Source: Acinetobacter sp. (lineage in GTDB: Bacteria > Pseudomonadota > Gammaproteobacteria > Pseudomonadales > Moraxellaceae). Taken from it: DNA of 64,000 nt. The position numbers and the translations under genes were made by a program. Shown here piece after piece: positions 21,382 to 44,480 of the stretch (position 1 is the first letter of the stretch; every line of letters begins with the position of its first letter). The notes below the pieces were generated by a model that saw only the letters and a list, made by a program, of their open reading frames with translations, searched no databases and was not told the DNA's origin. The stretch is from positions 1-64,000 of the forward strand of contig JAITLL010000076.1 of the NCBI GenBank assembly GCA_031277915.1, given 5' to 3'.

Positions 21382-21414
21382 TTTAAGTCATTTTTAAGTT
21401 TCAATTTTTACATT
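21382..21414 (+). promoter_or_regulatory. PmrA box and promoter of pmrCAB
   Basis: TTTAAG at 21382-21387, five nt, then TTTAAG at 21393-21398 matches the PmrA/BasR consensus HTTAAD-N5-HTTAAD exactly. Ten nt later TACATT (21409-21414) can act as the -10 element. The first codon of pmrC follows 35 nt further on. PmrA therefore probably activates its own operon. Confidence 0.8.
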
Positions 21415-21448: not shown

Positions 21449-23098
21449 ATGCTGAGTTTTTTTTCTAAATTAAGAAATAAGCAGATTTCCCTGTTTATGT
21501 TCAACTTCATGATAGCCATTTGGTTAGGCGCAATTCTAAATATTGGTTTTTATAAGAAAGTTCACTTGTTGACACCATATTTAGGCATTAAAGCAAGCCT
21601 ATTCTTAGTGGCTACTGTAGTGATTGTTGTTGCTACCTATTATGCTGCTTTACAAATTTTAAACTGGAAATGGACAGCCAAAATTTTTGCCATTTTGTTG
21701 GTATTTATTGGTGGTTTTAGCTCGTACTTTGTAAATACTTTGGGTGTCATTGTTTCACCAGACCAAATTCAAAATATCGTACAAACAGATGTCTCGGAAG
21801 CTACAGATTTACTCTCTTTGCGTTTTGTATTCTGGACTATTTTCTTTGTCATTTTACCTATTTTTTTAATTACCCAGGTAAAATTCAAACAAGAAAAAAT
21901 ACTTCCTCTTTTACTTAAAAAGGTACTTTCAATCGCCCTTGCATTTGCAGTTGTAGGCGGTTTGCTGTTTACTTATTATGTTGATTTTGCAGCAATATTT
22001 AGAGAGCATCGCGATTTAAAAGGGATGATCTCTCCGCAGAATACTATTTCTTCGGTTATGTCTTATTATCGTAAAAAAGCGCCGAAGAAAAATCTTCCCC
22101 TTGTGAAATATGGTGAAGATGCGCAACAAGTTCAACAAACTCAAAAAGGTTTACCTAAACTCATGGTGCTTGTAGTTGGTGAAACTGCACGTGCTGAAAG
22201 CTTTTCGCTTAATGGTTATGCAAAAAATACTAATCCCGAGCTTTCTAAACAAGATATTTTAAACTTCTCTCAAGTGAGTTCATGTGGTACTGCAACAGCA
22301 GTTTCCGTGCCGTGTATGTTCTCTGGTATGCCACGTTCTGATTATGATGAGCAATTAGCAAGCCATCGTGAAGGATTACTTGATATTGCAAAACGTGCAG
22401 GTTATCAAGTGACTTGGATTGATAACAACTCAGGTTGTAAAGGTGCATGTGATCGTGTTGAACAGTATCAAATTCCAGAAAACTTAAAGCAAAAATGGTG
22501 TAAAGATGGCGAATGTCTTGATGAAATTCTGATTGATAGCTTAAAGCAGTATTTGGCTTCTATTCCGAAAGATGATCAGCGTCCGCGTTTGGTTGTATTG
22601 CATCAGATGGGTAGCCATGGACCAGCATATTACAAGCGTGCACCTCAAGGATATCAACCATTTAAACCAACTTGTGATACTAATGCGATACAGGGTTGTT
22701 CATCAGTTGAATTAGTAAATAGTTATGATAATTCAATCGTGTATACAGACCATGTATTAAGCCAAATGATTAATACTTTAAAAGAAGTATCGAATTATCA
22801 AACAGGTTTCTGGTATTTATCTGACCATGGTGAGTCGACAGGTGAACATGGTATGTATTTGCATGGTTCGCCTTACTCAATCGCACCGAGCCAACAAACG
22901 CATATTCCAATGATTATGTGGTTCTCTGATAGTTGGAAACAACAAAATATTGCTCAAATAAATTGTTTAAACCAACAAACCAAACAAAAGTTAAGTCAGG
23001 ATAATTTATTCCCAAGTTTGTTAAGTTTGCTGGATGTAAAAACTCAGGTCATTAACCCTCAACTCGACATGTTGCACTCTTGTGCCAATGTAAACTAA
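21449..23098 (+). CDS. pmrC: Lipid A phosphoethanolamine transferase PmrC (EptA family)
   Basis: A 549-residue inner membrane enzyme that adds phosphoethanolamine to lipid A on the periplasmic side, lowering negative charge and giving polymyxin/colistin resistance. Five hydrophobic helices occupy residues 15-180; the periplasmic alkaline-phosphatase-like domain carries metal ligand Glu245 in VVGETARAESF, the catalytic Thr281 in CGTATAVSVPCM, and the metal-binding LSDHGESTGEHGMYLHG segment. Paired Cys residues of the family are present. It heads the pmrCAB operon, 14 nt before pmrA. Start ATG 21449; an in-frame ATG at residue 17 is a shorter alternative. Confidence 0.96.
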   Translation: MLSFFSKLRNKQISLFMFNFMIAIWLGAILNIGFYKKVHLLTPYLGIKASLFLVATVVIVVATYYAALQILNWKWTAKIFAILLVFIGGFSSYFVNTLGVIVSPDQIQNIVQTDVSEATDLLSLRFVFWTIFFVILPIFLITQVKFKQEKILPLLLKKVLSIALAFAVVGGLLFTYYVDFAAIFREHRDLKGMISPQNTISSVMSYYRKKAPKKNLPLVKYGEDAQQVQQTQKGLPKLMVLVVGETARAESFSLNGYAKNTNPELSKQDILNFSQVSSCGTATAVSVPCMFSGMPRSDYDEQLASHREGLLDIAKRAGYQVTWIDNNSGCKGACDRVEQYQIPENLKQKWCKDGECLDEILIDSLKQYLASIPKDDQRPRLVVLHQMGSHGPAYYKRAPQGYQPFKPTCDTNAIQGCSSVELVNSYDNSIVYTDHVLSQMINTLKEVSNYQTGFWYLSDHGESTGEHGMYLHGSPYSIAPSQQTHIPMIMWFSDSWKQQNIAQINCLNQQTKQKLSQDNLFPSLLSLLDVKTQVINPQLDMLHSCANVN

Positions 23099-23112: not shown

Positions 23113-23787
23113 ATGACAAAAATCTTGATGATTGAAGATGATTTTATGATTGCAGAGTCAACGACTACGTTGCTGCAATATCATCAATTTGAGGTGGAAT
23201 GGGTCAATAACGGTTTAGATGGTTTGGCCCAATTGGCAAAGAATAAGTTTGATCTCATTCTTTTAGATTTGGGATTGCCAATGATGGATGGTATGCAGGT
23301 TTTAAAGCAAATTCGTCAAAGAGCGGCAACACCAGTCTTAATTATCTCTGCGCGTGACCAATTGCAAAACCGTGTTGATGGTTTAAATCTGGGTGCAGAT
23401 GATTACTTAATTAAACCTTATGAGTTTGATGAGTTACTCGCTCGTATTCATGCGCTATTGCGCCGTAGTGGAGTAGAGGCTCAACTTGCTAGCCAAGATC
23501 AATTATTAGAAAGTGGCGATCTGGTTTTAAATGTTGAACAGCATATAGCAACATTTAAAGGGCAACGTATTGATTTATCAAATCGTGAGTGGGCCATCTT
23601 GATTCCGCTGATGAGTCATCCAAATAAAATTTTCTCGAAGGCTAATTTGGAAGATAAGTTATATGACTTTGATAGCGATGTGACCAGCAACACGATTGAA
23701 GTATATGTCCATCATTTAAGAGCTAAGTTGGGTAAAGACTTTATTCGAACCATTCGAGGTTTGGGTTACCGTTTAGGCCAATCATAA
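23113..23787 (+). CDS. pmrA: Response regulator PmrA
   Basis: A 224-residue OmpR-family regulator. The receiver domain shows the acidic pocket Glu8-Asp9-Asp10, phosphorylated Asp52 and conserved Lys101; the C-terminal winged helix (LSNREWAILIPLMSHP to VYVHHLRAKLGKDFIRTIRG) binds DNA. It is phosphorylated by PmrB and activates pmrC. It stands between pmrC and pmrB with short gaps, so all three are co-transcribed. TTTAAG-N5-TTTAAG sites are expected targets and two occur in this window. Confidence 0.96.
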   Translation: MTKILMIEDDFMIAESTTTLLQYHQFEVEWVNNGLDGLAQLAKNKFDLILLDLGLPMMDGMQVLKQIRQRAATPVLIISARDQLQNRVDGLNLGADDYLIKPYEFDELLARIHALLRRSGVEAQLASQDQLLESGDLVLNVEQHIATFKGQRIDLSNREWAILIPLMSHPNKIFSKANLEDKLYDFDSDVTSNTIEVYVHHLRAKLGKDFIRTIRGLGYRLGQS

Positions 23788-23806: not shown

Positions 23807-25147
23807 ATGAACGTGCATTATTCATTAAAAAAGCGATTGATCTGGGGCACCTCAATTTTTAGTGTTGTCTTAGGTTGTATTTTAATTTTTAGTGCCTATA
23901 AAGTCGCACTTCAAGAAGTCGATGAAATTTTAGATACTCAAATGCAGTATTTAGCGGAAAGAACAGCTGAGTATCCTTTAAAAACAGTAAGTAGTAAGTT
24001 TGATTTACATCGAACTTATCACGAAGAAGATTTATTTTTAGATATCTGGGCTTATAAAGACCAAGCTAATTTATCTCATCATCTTCACTTATTGGTTCCT
24101 CCAGTCGAGCAAGCTGGTTTTTATTCACATAAAACAGCTGAAGGTGTAGTCCGTACCTATGTTCTGCCGTTAAAAGACTACCAAATTCAGGTGAGTCAAC
24201 AAGAACGGGTGCGTGAAGCTTTTGCATGGGAGCTTGCGGGCAGTATGTTCATTCCCTATTTAATCATTTTACCTTTTGCGATATTTGCTTTGGCTGCCAT
24301 TATTAGTCGTGGTTTAAAACCAATAGATGATTTTAAAAACGAGTTAATGGAACGAGATTCTGAAGAATTAACACCAATTGAGGTACATGACTATCCTCAG
24401 GAGCTTTTGCCGACCATTGATGAAATGAATCGTCTGTTTGACCGTATTTCTAAAGCACAAAATGAACAGAAGCAATTTATTGCAGATGCGGCTCATGAAC
24501 TGAGGACACCTGTTACTGCATTGAATTTACAAACCAAAATTTTGCTTAGTCAATTCCCTGGACATGCATCATTGCAAAACTTAAGTAAAGGTTTAGCACG
24601 TATTCAGCATTTAGTTACTCAGCTTTTAGCTTTAGCGAAGCAAGATGTGACTTTAAGTGTGGTTGAACCTACAGGGTATTTTAAGCTTAATGATGTGGCT
24701 TTAAATTGTGTAGAGCAGTTGGTCAATTTAGCTATGCAAAAAGAAATTGATTTGGGGTTTGTTAAAAATGATCCAGTCGAAATGCATAGTATTGAACCTA
24801 CGGTACATTCGATCATTTTTAATTTAATTGATAATGCAATTAAATACACACCACATCAGGGCGTTATTAATATCTCGGTTTCTACCGATGCAGATAACTA
24901 TGCGTGTATTCAAATTGAAGATAGTGGTGTAGGGATCGACCCTGAAAATTACGATAAGGTACTTAAACGCTTTTATCGAGTGCACCATCATCTAGAGGTA
25001 GGAAGTGGTTTGGGTTTATCAATTGTTGATCGTGCAACTCAAAGATTGGGTGGAACTTTAACTCTCGACAAGAGTTTAGAGCTTGGTGGTCTTTCAGTTT
25101 TAGTGAAGTTGCCTAAAGTACTACATCTAAATGAAACAAGAGCTTAA
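23807..25147 (+). CDS. pmrB: Sensor histidine kinase PmrB
   Basis: A 446-residue inner membrane kinase. Helix 1 is at about 12-32 and helix 2 at about 146-168, enclosing a periplasmic sensor region; a HAMP linker and the phosphoacceptor box FIADAAHELRTPV (His230) follow, then the ATPase boxes (NLIDNAIKYTP, DSGVGIDPEN, GSGLGLSIV). It controls PmrA in response to metal ions and acidity. Pro235, equivalent to the Pro233 often mutated in colistin-resistant strains, is intact. Numbering is two higher than the usual 444-residue form because I use the ATG two codons before GTG. The stop codon lies inside a palindrome shared with the convergent gene. Confidence 0.95.
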   Translation: MNVHYSLKKRLIWGTSIFSVVLGCILIFSAYKVALQEVDEILDTQMQYLAERTAEYPLKTVSSKFDLHRTYHEEDLFLDIWAYKDQANLSHHLHLLVPPVEQAGFYSHKTAEGVVRTYVLPLKDYQIQVSQQERVREAFAWELAGSMFIPYLIILPFAIFALAAIISRGLKPIDDFKNELMERDSEELTPIEVHDYPQELLPTIDEMNRLFDRISKAQNEQKQFIADAAHELRTPVTALNLQTKILLSQFPGHASLQNLSKGLARIQHLVTQLLALAKQDVTLSVVEPTGYFKLNDVALNCVEQLVNLAMQKEIDLGFVKNDPVEMHSIEPTVHSIIFNLIDNAIKYTPHQGVINISVSTDADNYACIQIEDSGVGIDPENYDKVLKRFYRVHHHLEVGSGLGLSIVDRATQRLGGTLTLDKSLELGGLSVLVKLPKVLHLNETRA

Positions 25148-25161
25148 TTAAGCTCTTGTTT
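25134..25161. terminator. Perfect 28-bp palindrome over the pmrB and PAP2 stop codons
   Basis: The arms AAACAAGAGCTTAA and TTAAGCTCTTGTTT are exact reverse complements with no spacer. The two convergent genes overlap by 4 nt at its centre, so both C-termini and both stop codons are coded inside it. It is likely to act as a terminator in both directions, although the centre AATT would form the hairpin loop. Confidence 0.7.
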
Positions 25162-25842
25162 TAATTGTTTCTCGAACTCAAAGCGATGAATACAAATCGC
25201 ATAAAATAAAATATTGATCGCCCAAACGACCCAACCAGTCCATAAGTTATGACTCAGGAAATGTGCTCCTCGCATCATTTGTGCCCAACCCATCATAAAA
25301 CCTAATAAGATGCCAGAAAATAAATAAAAGTAAGCACGTTTAGGTTGTTCAAGACGATAAACGAAATAACCCGTCATTAAGATAAAACCAGCGCTAGCGT
25401 GGCCACCTGGAAAACAATGACCATGTTTAGCGGTAAAGTCCCAAATATAGCCACCTAAACTATTAGGATGAACCATATTCCAAGGGCAGGCATGAGCAGA
25501 TTGTGATTTTAATAACCCGACGATACCACTACTAATCATACTGACAAAAAACATGTAACCGTATTGCCAGCGATAGATTTTTAATTTTTCTACTTTAAAT
25601 GATGCAAGCCAAAGACCAAAAAACATAACATAAACTGCGGTAATAATATGTTTTACGATTTGATGGTTAAGCTTTTCGAGATACCAATTTTCCCGATTAA
25701 AAAATTGACCTGTTGAATCAATCCAAGGCTGGATAAGATACATATCAATTTTTCCACCCACTGGAAATACAAATAAAAGTATAAAAAAACTGACAACAAG
25801 AAAAATAAGTTGAAGCTGAAAGAAATGTTTTTGTTGAGTCAT
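25144..25842 (-). CDS. PAP2-family membrane phosphatase, probable PmrA target
   Basis: A 232-residue membrane protein with about six helices. PAP2 motifs are recognisable but not canonical: LLKSQSAHACPW in place of KX6RP, PGGHASAGF for PSGH, and GAHFLSHNLW where the usual HX3D has His instead of Asp. PAP2 enzymes remove phosphates from lipids such as undecaprenyl pyrophosphate or lipid A. It converges on pmrB with a 4-nt overlap, and its upstream region carries a PmrA-type box. A role in lipid A or carrier-lipid phosphate handling is therefore plausible but is inference. Confidence 0.82.
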   Translation of the reverse strand: MTQQKHFFQLQLIFLVVSFFILLFVFPVGGKIDMYLIQPWIDSTGQFFNRENWYLEKLNHQIVKHIITAVYVMFFGLWLASFKVEKLKIYRWQYGYMFFVSMISSGIVGLLKSQSAHACPWNMVHPNSLGGYIWDFTAKHGHCFPGGHASAGFILMTGYFVYRLEQPKRAYFYLFSGILLGFMMGWAQMMRGAHFLSHNLWTGWVVWAINILFYAICIHRFEFEKQLKQELN

Positions 25843-25878: not shown

Positions 25879-25911
25879 ATTACATAAAATAAAACTTAAA
25901 TTGTTCTTAAA
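25879..25911 (-). promoter_or_regulatory. PmrA-type box and promoter of the PAP2 gene
   Basis: On the minus strand TTTAAG-AACAA-TTTAAG (25911 to 25895) is followed after exactly 10 nt by TGTAAT (25884 to 25879), five of six matches to TATAAT, and the gene starts 36 nt later. Half-site sequence, half-site spacing and distance to the -10 are identical to those in front of pmrC. Confidence 0.7.
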
Positions 25912-26044
25912 CTATTTAAGATTTCATCTATAAATCTTAAAATAATATTAAAATTAATATATTTTTCAATATTCTAAATTGATTGAATAAAGACTTGGGT
26001 GAGTGATTTTTAATCAATGATAAGCATTTTTATTCATATAAGGT

Positions 26045-43803: not shown

Positions 43804-44430
43804 CTAAAAATATATTTGTTTTCTACTTAACCTACTTTGTGTTTGTCTTAACAAGAGCCAAAGCAGTGCAATCCAAATAAAACCAATGCCCCAACCAGCG
43901 AGTACATCTGTTGGGAAATGAACTCCTGCATATATTCTTGAAAGTCCCATGCACACAAACCAAAAACAGGAGATCAAAACAATATAAGGAGAGTTAATGT
44001 TGTGCTTACGACATAACATAATCATTGCCAGACAAGCCAGTGTTGATGCATAAACACTATGTGCACTTGGGAACGATGCACCATAACTTTCAACAATATG
44101 ATATGCCTCAGGAGGTCTAGGCCGGTTAACACACCATTTGAGCAGCCAACCAATGGTGATACTGCCAATAACTCCCAAGCTAATGAAAATAACAGTAATA
44201 TATTTTTTATACCATGCTAAATATACACATACTAGAAAGGATAAAAAACATACAAAAGGCATGCCGCCTACGCGTGCAAGAAAGGTAGTTATAGTATTAA
44301 GATAATCTAAACGATGATGACTCAATGTTTGAACGGTGAGCAAGTCCAAAGATTGAAGACTTGGTACAAAAAGACCAAGAATACTTAATCCTAAAAAAAC
44401 ACAACCAATACAAAGCAATAGATAGGGCAT
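43804..44430 (-). CDS. PAP2-family membrane phosphatase leading adeIJK
   Basis: A 208-residue membrane protein with about six helices and fully canonical PAP2 motifs: KWCVNRPRP (KX6RP), FPSAHS (PSGH-like) and SRIYAGVHFPTD (SRX5HX3D). The enzymes dephosphorylate lipid phosphates at the membrane surface. I use the ATG at 44430, with AAAGGTG six nt upstream; GTG at 44439 would add three residues. With only 24 nt to adeI and the same strand, it probably shares the adeIJK transcript. Confidence 0.88.
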   Translation of the reverse strand: MPYLLLCIGCVFLGLSILGLFVPSLQSLDLLTVQTLSHHRLDYLNTITTFLARVGGMPFVCFLSFLVCVYLAWYKKYITVIFISLGVIGSITIGWLLKWCVNRPRPPEAYHIVESYGASFPSAHSVYASTLACLAMIMLCRKHNINSPYIVLISCFWFVCMGLSRIYAGVHFPTDVLAGWGIGFIWIALLWLLLRQTQSRLSRKQIYF

Positions 44431-44480
44431 ATTACACACCTTTGCTTATTCATATAGTTTTTCACTACTGAATGCCGTTG

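Follow-up and report, generated by a model that had tools for sequence, protein, structure and literature searches.

A PmrA-type box and its promoter geometry are conserved upstream of the PAP2 gene beside pmrB in Acinetobacter

In Escherichia coli, one regulator, PmrA (BasR), drives eptA, dgkA and the PAP2 enzyme gene ybjG, and an increase of dgkA and ybjG by PmrAB is described for Enterobacteriaceae (PMC7559476; this and the other publications cited here are represented by excerpts). In mcr-1-pap2, and in mcr-7 with pap2 and dgkA, PAP2 and/or DgkA genes are joined to the gene for a phosphoethanolamine transferase (PMC7559476, PMC10285318). In A. baumannii, PmrA boxes are listed for pmrCAB, eptA-1 and naxD (PMC9431647). 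Binding of PmrA to the pmrC and naxD promoters was observed in electrophoretic mobility shift assays and binding to the repeat, named as TTTAAG-N5-TTTAAG, by isothermal titration calorimetry (PMC10927774). Strains with pmrA and pmrB deletions are available for ATCC 17978 (PMC10215926). Here, a box of this class is described upstream of a PAP2-family gene located next to pmrB in Acinetobacter sp. The window, i.e. the whole stretch analysed, comprises 64,000 nt of contig JAITLL010000076.1 and belongs to a genome of 3,481,653 bases.

PAP2 genes are already known from PmrA regulons, as the example of E. coli ybjG illustrates. The Acinetobacter gene differs from ybjG in the catalytic motif of its product, in its position near pmrB and in the apparent dgkA-PAP2 operon that is found in 16 of 97 genomes. 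Its product has an HFLSH motif in common with the PAP2 protein linked to mcr-1 but shares only 22% identity with it. In contrast to the mcr-1 and mcr-7 units, the link to the transferase gene is a shared regulator box and not cotranscription. The described A. baumannii targets pmrC, eptA-1 and naxD carry the same class of box, whereas PAP2 and dgkA are not named among them in the excerpts (PMC9431647). The adjacency of pmr and PAP2 genes as such is partly in print, since the excerpts of PMC10285318 mention one eptA-like gene with a pair resembling PmrAB and describe it as 'divergent from a pap2 gene'. A literature search (supplementary tables excluded) returned no paper naming PAP2 as a PmrA target in Acinetobacter. 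As judged from the comparative sequence data below, the PAP2 gene is very likely co-regulated with pmrC by PmrA.

Promoter geometry and the pmr locus

The box of the PAP2 gene, TTTAAG-AACAA-TTTAAG, is located on the minus strand (25895..25911). Reading from 25911 to 25895 and onwards, it is followed by the 10-nt spacer TTTTATTTTA and the -10-like hexamer TGTAAT (25879..25884, minus strand). The distance from the box to the ATG (25842) is 52 nt. Upstream of pmrC, the box TTTAAG-TCATT-TTTAAG (21382..21398, plus strand) is followed by the 10-nt spacer TTTCAATTTT and the -10-like hexamer TACATT (21409..21414, plus strand). The letters of the pmrC box are identical to those given for the pmrCAB site in PMC9431647, and the 21-bp fragment used for calorimetry carries this site (PMC10927774). 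A preceding sequence-only reading of the window had proposed that both promoters have the same geometry and that the PAP2 box fits the consensus HTTAAD-N5-HTTAAD exactly; both statements were confirmed.

To what extent such boxes occur elsewhere was assessed in the window and in the genome. The consensus HTTAAD-N5-HTTAAD, which is the same pattern on either strand, has 9 matches in the window versus 2.99 expected, a number reached by 1 of 100 shuffles, and 190 places genome-wide versus 151 for the reversed control. HTTAAG-N5-TTTAAG is not enriched in the genome (5 places versus 7 for the reversed control), and TTTAAG-N5-TTTAAG with at most one mismatch occurs at 84 places, compared to 71 for the reversed pattern. 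The exact TTTAAG-N5-TTTAAG is found at only four places in the genome, namely upstream of pmrC, PAP2, a gene encoding 116 aa and a META-domain gene. At this rate, the arithmetic chance of a match in a 170-nt leader on one strand is approximately 1 in 10,000. Since the genome-wide frequencies are close to the controls, the motif alone is weak evidence; it is the conservation across the genus that places the PAP2 box beyond chance. A generic sigma-70 scan was uninformative (4 sites versus 4.9 in shuffles). A fixed TNNNAT pattern for the -10 element has a single genome-wide match, the PAP2 promoter, and was dropped because it misses pmrC.

The remaining locus is organized as follows. The lipid A phosphoethanolamine transferase gene pmrC (21449..23098; NF028537, 729.3 bits, cut-off 500), the response regulator gene pmrA (23113..23787; PF00072 and PF00486) and the sensor kinase gene pmrB (23807..25147; PF02518 and PF00512) are encoded on the plus strand. 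The name of pmrA is based on locus and literature; its product scores 205.4 of 330 bits in the enterobacterial PmrA model, which is below the cut-off. The PAP2 gene (25144..25842, minus strand) encodes a membrane phosphatase family protein of 232 aa and is convergent with pmrB, the 3' ends overlapping by 4 bases. A terminator-like stem of 14 pairs (25132..25163), a pattern match only that is reported on the plus strand, spans both gene ends.

Conservation of the PAP2 box and its pmr context

PAP2 relatives were sought in 120 Acinetobacter genomes, 97 of which were positive. The resulting set consists of the window and one 7-13-kb stretch from each of the 96 others; second PAP2 copies of two genomes (G005 and G113) were left out. 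PAP2 and pmrB are convergent in 86 of the 97 genomes, with a distance of up to 100 nt in 47, up to 500 nt in 17 and up to 1500 nt in 22 of them. In eight genomes, PAP2 precedes pmrCAB in the same orientation, and in three no pmrB is present in the stretch.

In 74 of the 97 genomes, the consensus HTTAAD-N5-HTTAAD lies no more than 170 nt from the PAP2 unit; 200 dinucleotide shuffles yield 2.8 genomes on average and never more than 7. The stricter HTTAAG form is present in 67. Alternative spacers of 0 to 11 nt yield 4-17 genomes for the HTTAAD form and 0-10 for the HTTAAG form. When up to two mismatches are allowed, the box is found in 82 genomes (50 shuffles: mean 6.0, maximum 15). In a separate scan of named species, the best 80 of 418 loci were considered, of which 54 share PAP2 letters with loci among the 97. 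The box is exact in 28 of these 80, has at most one mismatch in 62 and at most two in 78, while 20 shuffles gave a mean of 5.7 and a maximum of 12 at up to two mismatches and no exact box. A lack of half-site conservation in related genomes had been set beforehand as a result that would speak against the proposal; instead, the half-sites are conserved, with the exact consensus in 74 of 97 genomes and a box with up to two mismatches in 78 of the top 80 loci from named species.

In 67 genomes, the box directly precedes PAP2. Here, the pairwise identity is 0.74 for the -10 element, 0.35 for the spacer and 0.30 for the upstream DNA, where composition predicts 0.29. The half-sites reach 0.87 and 0.91, values that are inflated because the rows were selected for having a box. 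The -10 element reads TNNAAT at positions +11 to +16 after the box (T 0.91, A 0.93, A 0.96, T 1.00), the T at +16 being present in all 67 genomes. In a comparison of twelve close sequences, the box and the part downstream of it are kept, but directly upstream of the box the DNA falls into several unrelated types. A second, imperfect box was noted upstream of the PAP2 box (25936-25952). Within the twelve close sequences, this stretch is shared only by the window and three relatives; as only 3 of 11 close relatives have it, it was not taken as functional.

The presence of the box was also compared with the identity of the neighbouring PmrA. The pmrC promoter could be scored in 94 of the 97 genomes. 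When this PmrA shares at least 70% identity with that of the window, 79 of 82 genomes have the PAP2-unit box (up to two mismatches) and 80 of 81 have the pmrC box. At 60-70% identity, the numbers are 1 of 2 and 2 of 2, and below 60% they are 0 of 11 and 3 of 11, respectively. Both genomes without PmrA in the stretch have a PAP2-unit box. The eight genomes in which PAP2 precedes pmrCAB in the same orientation (L147-L154) have a PmrA below 60% and no recognisable box before PAP2.

Among the 80 named loci selected as the best of 418, only those of A. baylyi and A. soli (L198, L203) lack a box at up to two mismatches. In both, pmrAB and PAP2 are present, pmrC is missing from the locus and the PAP2 box is decayed. 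Since A. baylyi and A. soli are close relatives, this loss is possibly one event. An exact box persists approximately 200 nt before pmrA in both species. The PAP2 gene of L155 (35% identity) is preceded by an exact box although its 12.6-kb stretch contains no pmr genes. Outside the genus, a consensus box upstream of PAP2 was found in 5 of 7 family loci fetched, a count without shuffle control: L271-L273, with PAP2 beside pmrB, and the more distant L276 and L277 have a box, L274 and L275 have none. At the level of gene content, PmrC and PAP2 occur together in 97 of the 120 genomes, PmrC alone in 10, neither in 13 and PAP2 alone in none (Fisher p 1.3e-11, uncorrected for kinship and with three genomes assigned by elimination).

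The PAP2 protein, dgkA and other boxed genes

The encoded protein belongs to the PAP2 superfamily (PF01569, 41 bits, curated cut-off 27.2). The PAP2 fold is supported by a predicted model with a pLDDT (predicted local distance difference test score) of 89.9, for which PAP2 enzymes are the top fold matches. The canonical PAP2 motifs are KX6RP, PSGH and SRX5HX3D. The protein beside pmrB reads KX6CP, PGGH and QX5HX3H instead and lacks the canonical HisC2-AspC3-HisC3 triad of phosphatases such as PgpB, YbjG and LpxT (PMC7559476). The aspartate of motif C3 is replaced by histidine in every aligned relative (21 and 44 sequences in overlapping sets; alignment A2 does not include L228, which has a stop codon). 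It is a genuine but atypical PAP2 protein with HX3H for HX3D. Given that its motifs are invariant, it is likely to be a working lipid phosphatase. It scores 33.6 of 475 bits in the model for PAP2 next to MCR-1 (NF028536), which is under the cut-off, and a sequence search of solved structures with the family profile yielded chance matches only (best E 0.25). A second PAP2 gene of the window (43804-44439, minus strand) has ordinary KX6RP, PSAH and SRX5HX3D motifs.

The diacylglycerol kinase gene dgkA directly precedes PAP2 in an apparent operon in the 16 genomes mentioned above, and in 15 of these units a box (up to two mismatches) sits ahead of dgkA. The genome of the window has a standalone dgkA (PF01219; L014:1070-1517, G000:C14) with the one-mismatch box TTTAAG-AAAGA-TTTAAT 56 nt ahead and an irregular -10 spacing. 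Out of 102 genomes with dgkA, 30 loci were examined; 17 of them show a match to the consensus at a distance of up to 100 nt, a count without control. Due to this irregular spacing and the uncontrolled count, the box is claimed just for dgkA-PAP2 units. In a Klebsiella variicola plasmid record (L302:2654-10000), dgkA and a PAP2 gene are located close to genes for metal resistance and for a phosphoethanolamine transferase.

A one-mismatch box precedes a YdjC-family gene (PF04794) that fits naxD, the name being our own assignment. The gene encoding 116 aa (L001:1501-1926; G000:C49:58145-58570), which has no Pfam or NCBIfam match, carries an exact TTTAAG-N5-TTTAAG 58 nt ahead. Of the 20 best-matching loci in the genus (L282-L301), 19 have kept this box with no more than one mismatch, which makes the gene a candidate for a further PmrA target. 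The remaining exact box (L004:1501-1517, minus strand) is located 36 nt ahead of the META-domain protein gene.

Regulation and possible role of the PAP2 gene

Several points weigh against control of the PAP2 gene by PmrA. The counts stem from related genomes and do not represent independent events, and in the dgkA genomes the scanned stretch was chosen post hoc, after the arrangement was known. The exact consensus is missing in 23 of the 97 genomes. L141 has a boxed pmrC yet no PAP2 box, and L145 and L146 have no box in the scanned stretch; both have shortened PAP2 frames, and in L146, a dgkA genome, an exact box is found at -617 of the misplaced PAP2 start, outside that stretch. A second PmrC homologue is located elsewhere in at least 6 of the 11 genomes whose PmrA is below 60%, so what is seen in this group may be a different pmr cluster and not a diverged version. 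The literature search returned no measurement of PmrA binding or expression for the PAP2 gene. RNA sequencing of two resistant strains with pmrB changes identified seven genes induced in both, among them pmrC and dgkA (39 to 179 and 67 to 741 for the latter), and PAP2 is absent from these seven (PMC6330354). This is a weak counterpoint, as pmrA and pmrB are absent as well. Induction together with pmrAB is described for two putative membrane proteins that are not named (PMC11356899), which decides nothing. In A. baumannii, A1S_2749, which is named as PAP2, showed a 3-fold fall with mucin alongside phosphate genes (PMC5757984). Judging from the numbering, A1S_2749 would be the gene beside pmrB (A1S_2750), and its response hints at another input to the PAP2 gene.

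A box that arose by chance in AT-rich DNA would be in line with the commonness of the loose consensus and with the missing genome-wide enrichment, but this explanation is refuted by the conservation statistics across the genus and the named loci and has hardly any probability left. It is also very improbable that the box serves a different regulator and is linked to PmrA in appearance only. In principle, it could be recognized by another regulator of the OmpR type; moreover, a conserved box is also located before the unrelated 116-aa gene, where it is kept in L298, L300 and L301 though their pmr-linked PmrA is below 60%, and in the response to mucin PAP2 goes together with phosphate genes (PMC5757984). 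On the other hand, the PAP2 box is absent from all 11 genomes in which the neighbouring PmrA is below 60%, it is decayed where pmrC is missing, and the same sequence class is bound by PmrA at pmrC and naxD (PMC10927774). Regulation by Pho was considered and rejected, as the best Pho-like score at the PAP2 gene, 8 of 14, equals that of random window pieces and no Pho-box-like site stands out there.

For regulation by PmrA, the following mechanism is proposed. Upon signals sensed by PmrB, phosphorylated PmrA would bind the direct repeat, which by our own count covers approximately -39 to -23 of a promoter with TGTAAT as -10 element. There, PmrA would recruit RNA polymerase in place of a -35 element, as at pmrC. 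The product would act as a lipid phosphatase in the membrane and belong to the atypical HX3H type of PAP2, which is also found beside phosphoethanolamine transferases. It may deal with lipids disturbed by PmrC, which would use phosphatidylethanolamine as donor and release diacylglycerol, to be returned by DgkA. While we infer binding, induction and enzyme activity, the substrate is a guess. Taken as a whole, the reading of the PAP2 gene as a PmrA target encoding an HX3H-type lipid phosphatase that handles PmrC-disturbed lipids and does not strip lipid A appears probable. Within it, lipid turnover around phosphoethanolamine transfer is the best single guess for the job of the enzyme, albeit a tentative one.

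Two other roles under PmrA control were weighed. The enzyme could be an undecaprenyl pyrophosphate phosphatase, a YbjG stand-in that sustains carrier lipid during envelope modification. This is rather unlikely: YbjG is indeed a PAP2 enzyme reported to be activated by PmrAB, like dgkA and eptA (PMC7559476), but the C3 aspartate of the E. coli enzymes is histidine in all aligned sequences. Furthermore, the mcr-1-linked PAP2 protein, which has no triad aspartate and carries the same histidine, conferred no bacitracin resistance in E. coli (PMC7559476), and the genome of the window contains two other PAP2 genes with ordinary motifs. Removal of lipid A phosphate by an LpxE- or LpxF-like activity is distinctly less likely. 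The sequence-only reading had predicted a joint switch-on of PAP2 and pmrC by which lipid A or carrier-lipid phosphates might be trimmed. The first part is backed by the box, the geometry and the co-regulation that they suggest, whereas trimming of lipid A is not: the protein scores 48.9 of 275 bits in the PAP2 lipid A phosphatase model (NF028538), far under the curated cut-off, and neither the sequence nor the structure results point specifically to lipid A. Phosphate removal is also disfavoured because it would presumably take away the acceptor sites of PmrC.

A more far-reaching proposal, which we regard as a long shot, is that PmrA runs a lipid-repair module of dgkA and the HX3H-type PAP2 gene in step with phosphoethanolamine transfer. 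The Acinetobacter and mcr-1-linked HX3H PAP2 proteins would then form a single catalytic class whose substrate has yet to be described; they might be phosphate-transferring enzymes that act on diacylglycerol or lipid remaining in the periplasmic leaflet after phosphoethanolamine transfer.

If regulation by PmrA holds true, a conserved enzyme gene would join a regulon that is described by pmrC, eptA and naxD in the publications considered here, and the link of PAP2 with dgkA would suggest that lipid turnover belongs to the polymyxin response of Acinetobacter. The PAP2 protein linked to mcr-1 slightly raised colistin resistance together with mcr-1 (PMC7559476). For the question of what role such mcr-1-attached PAP2 proteins play, the Acinetobacter gene would provide a chromosomal and genetically workable relative.
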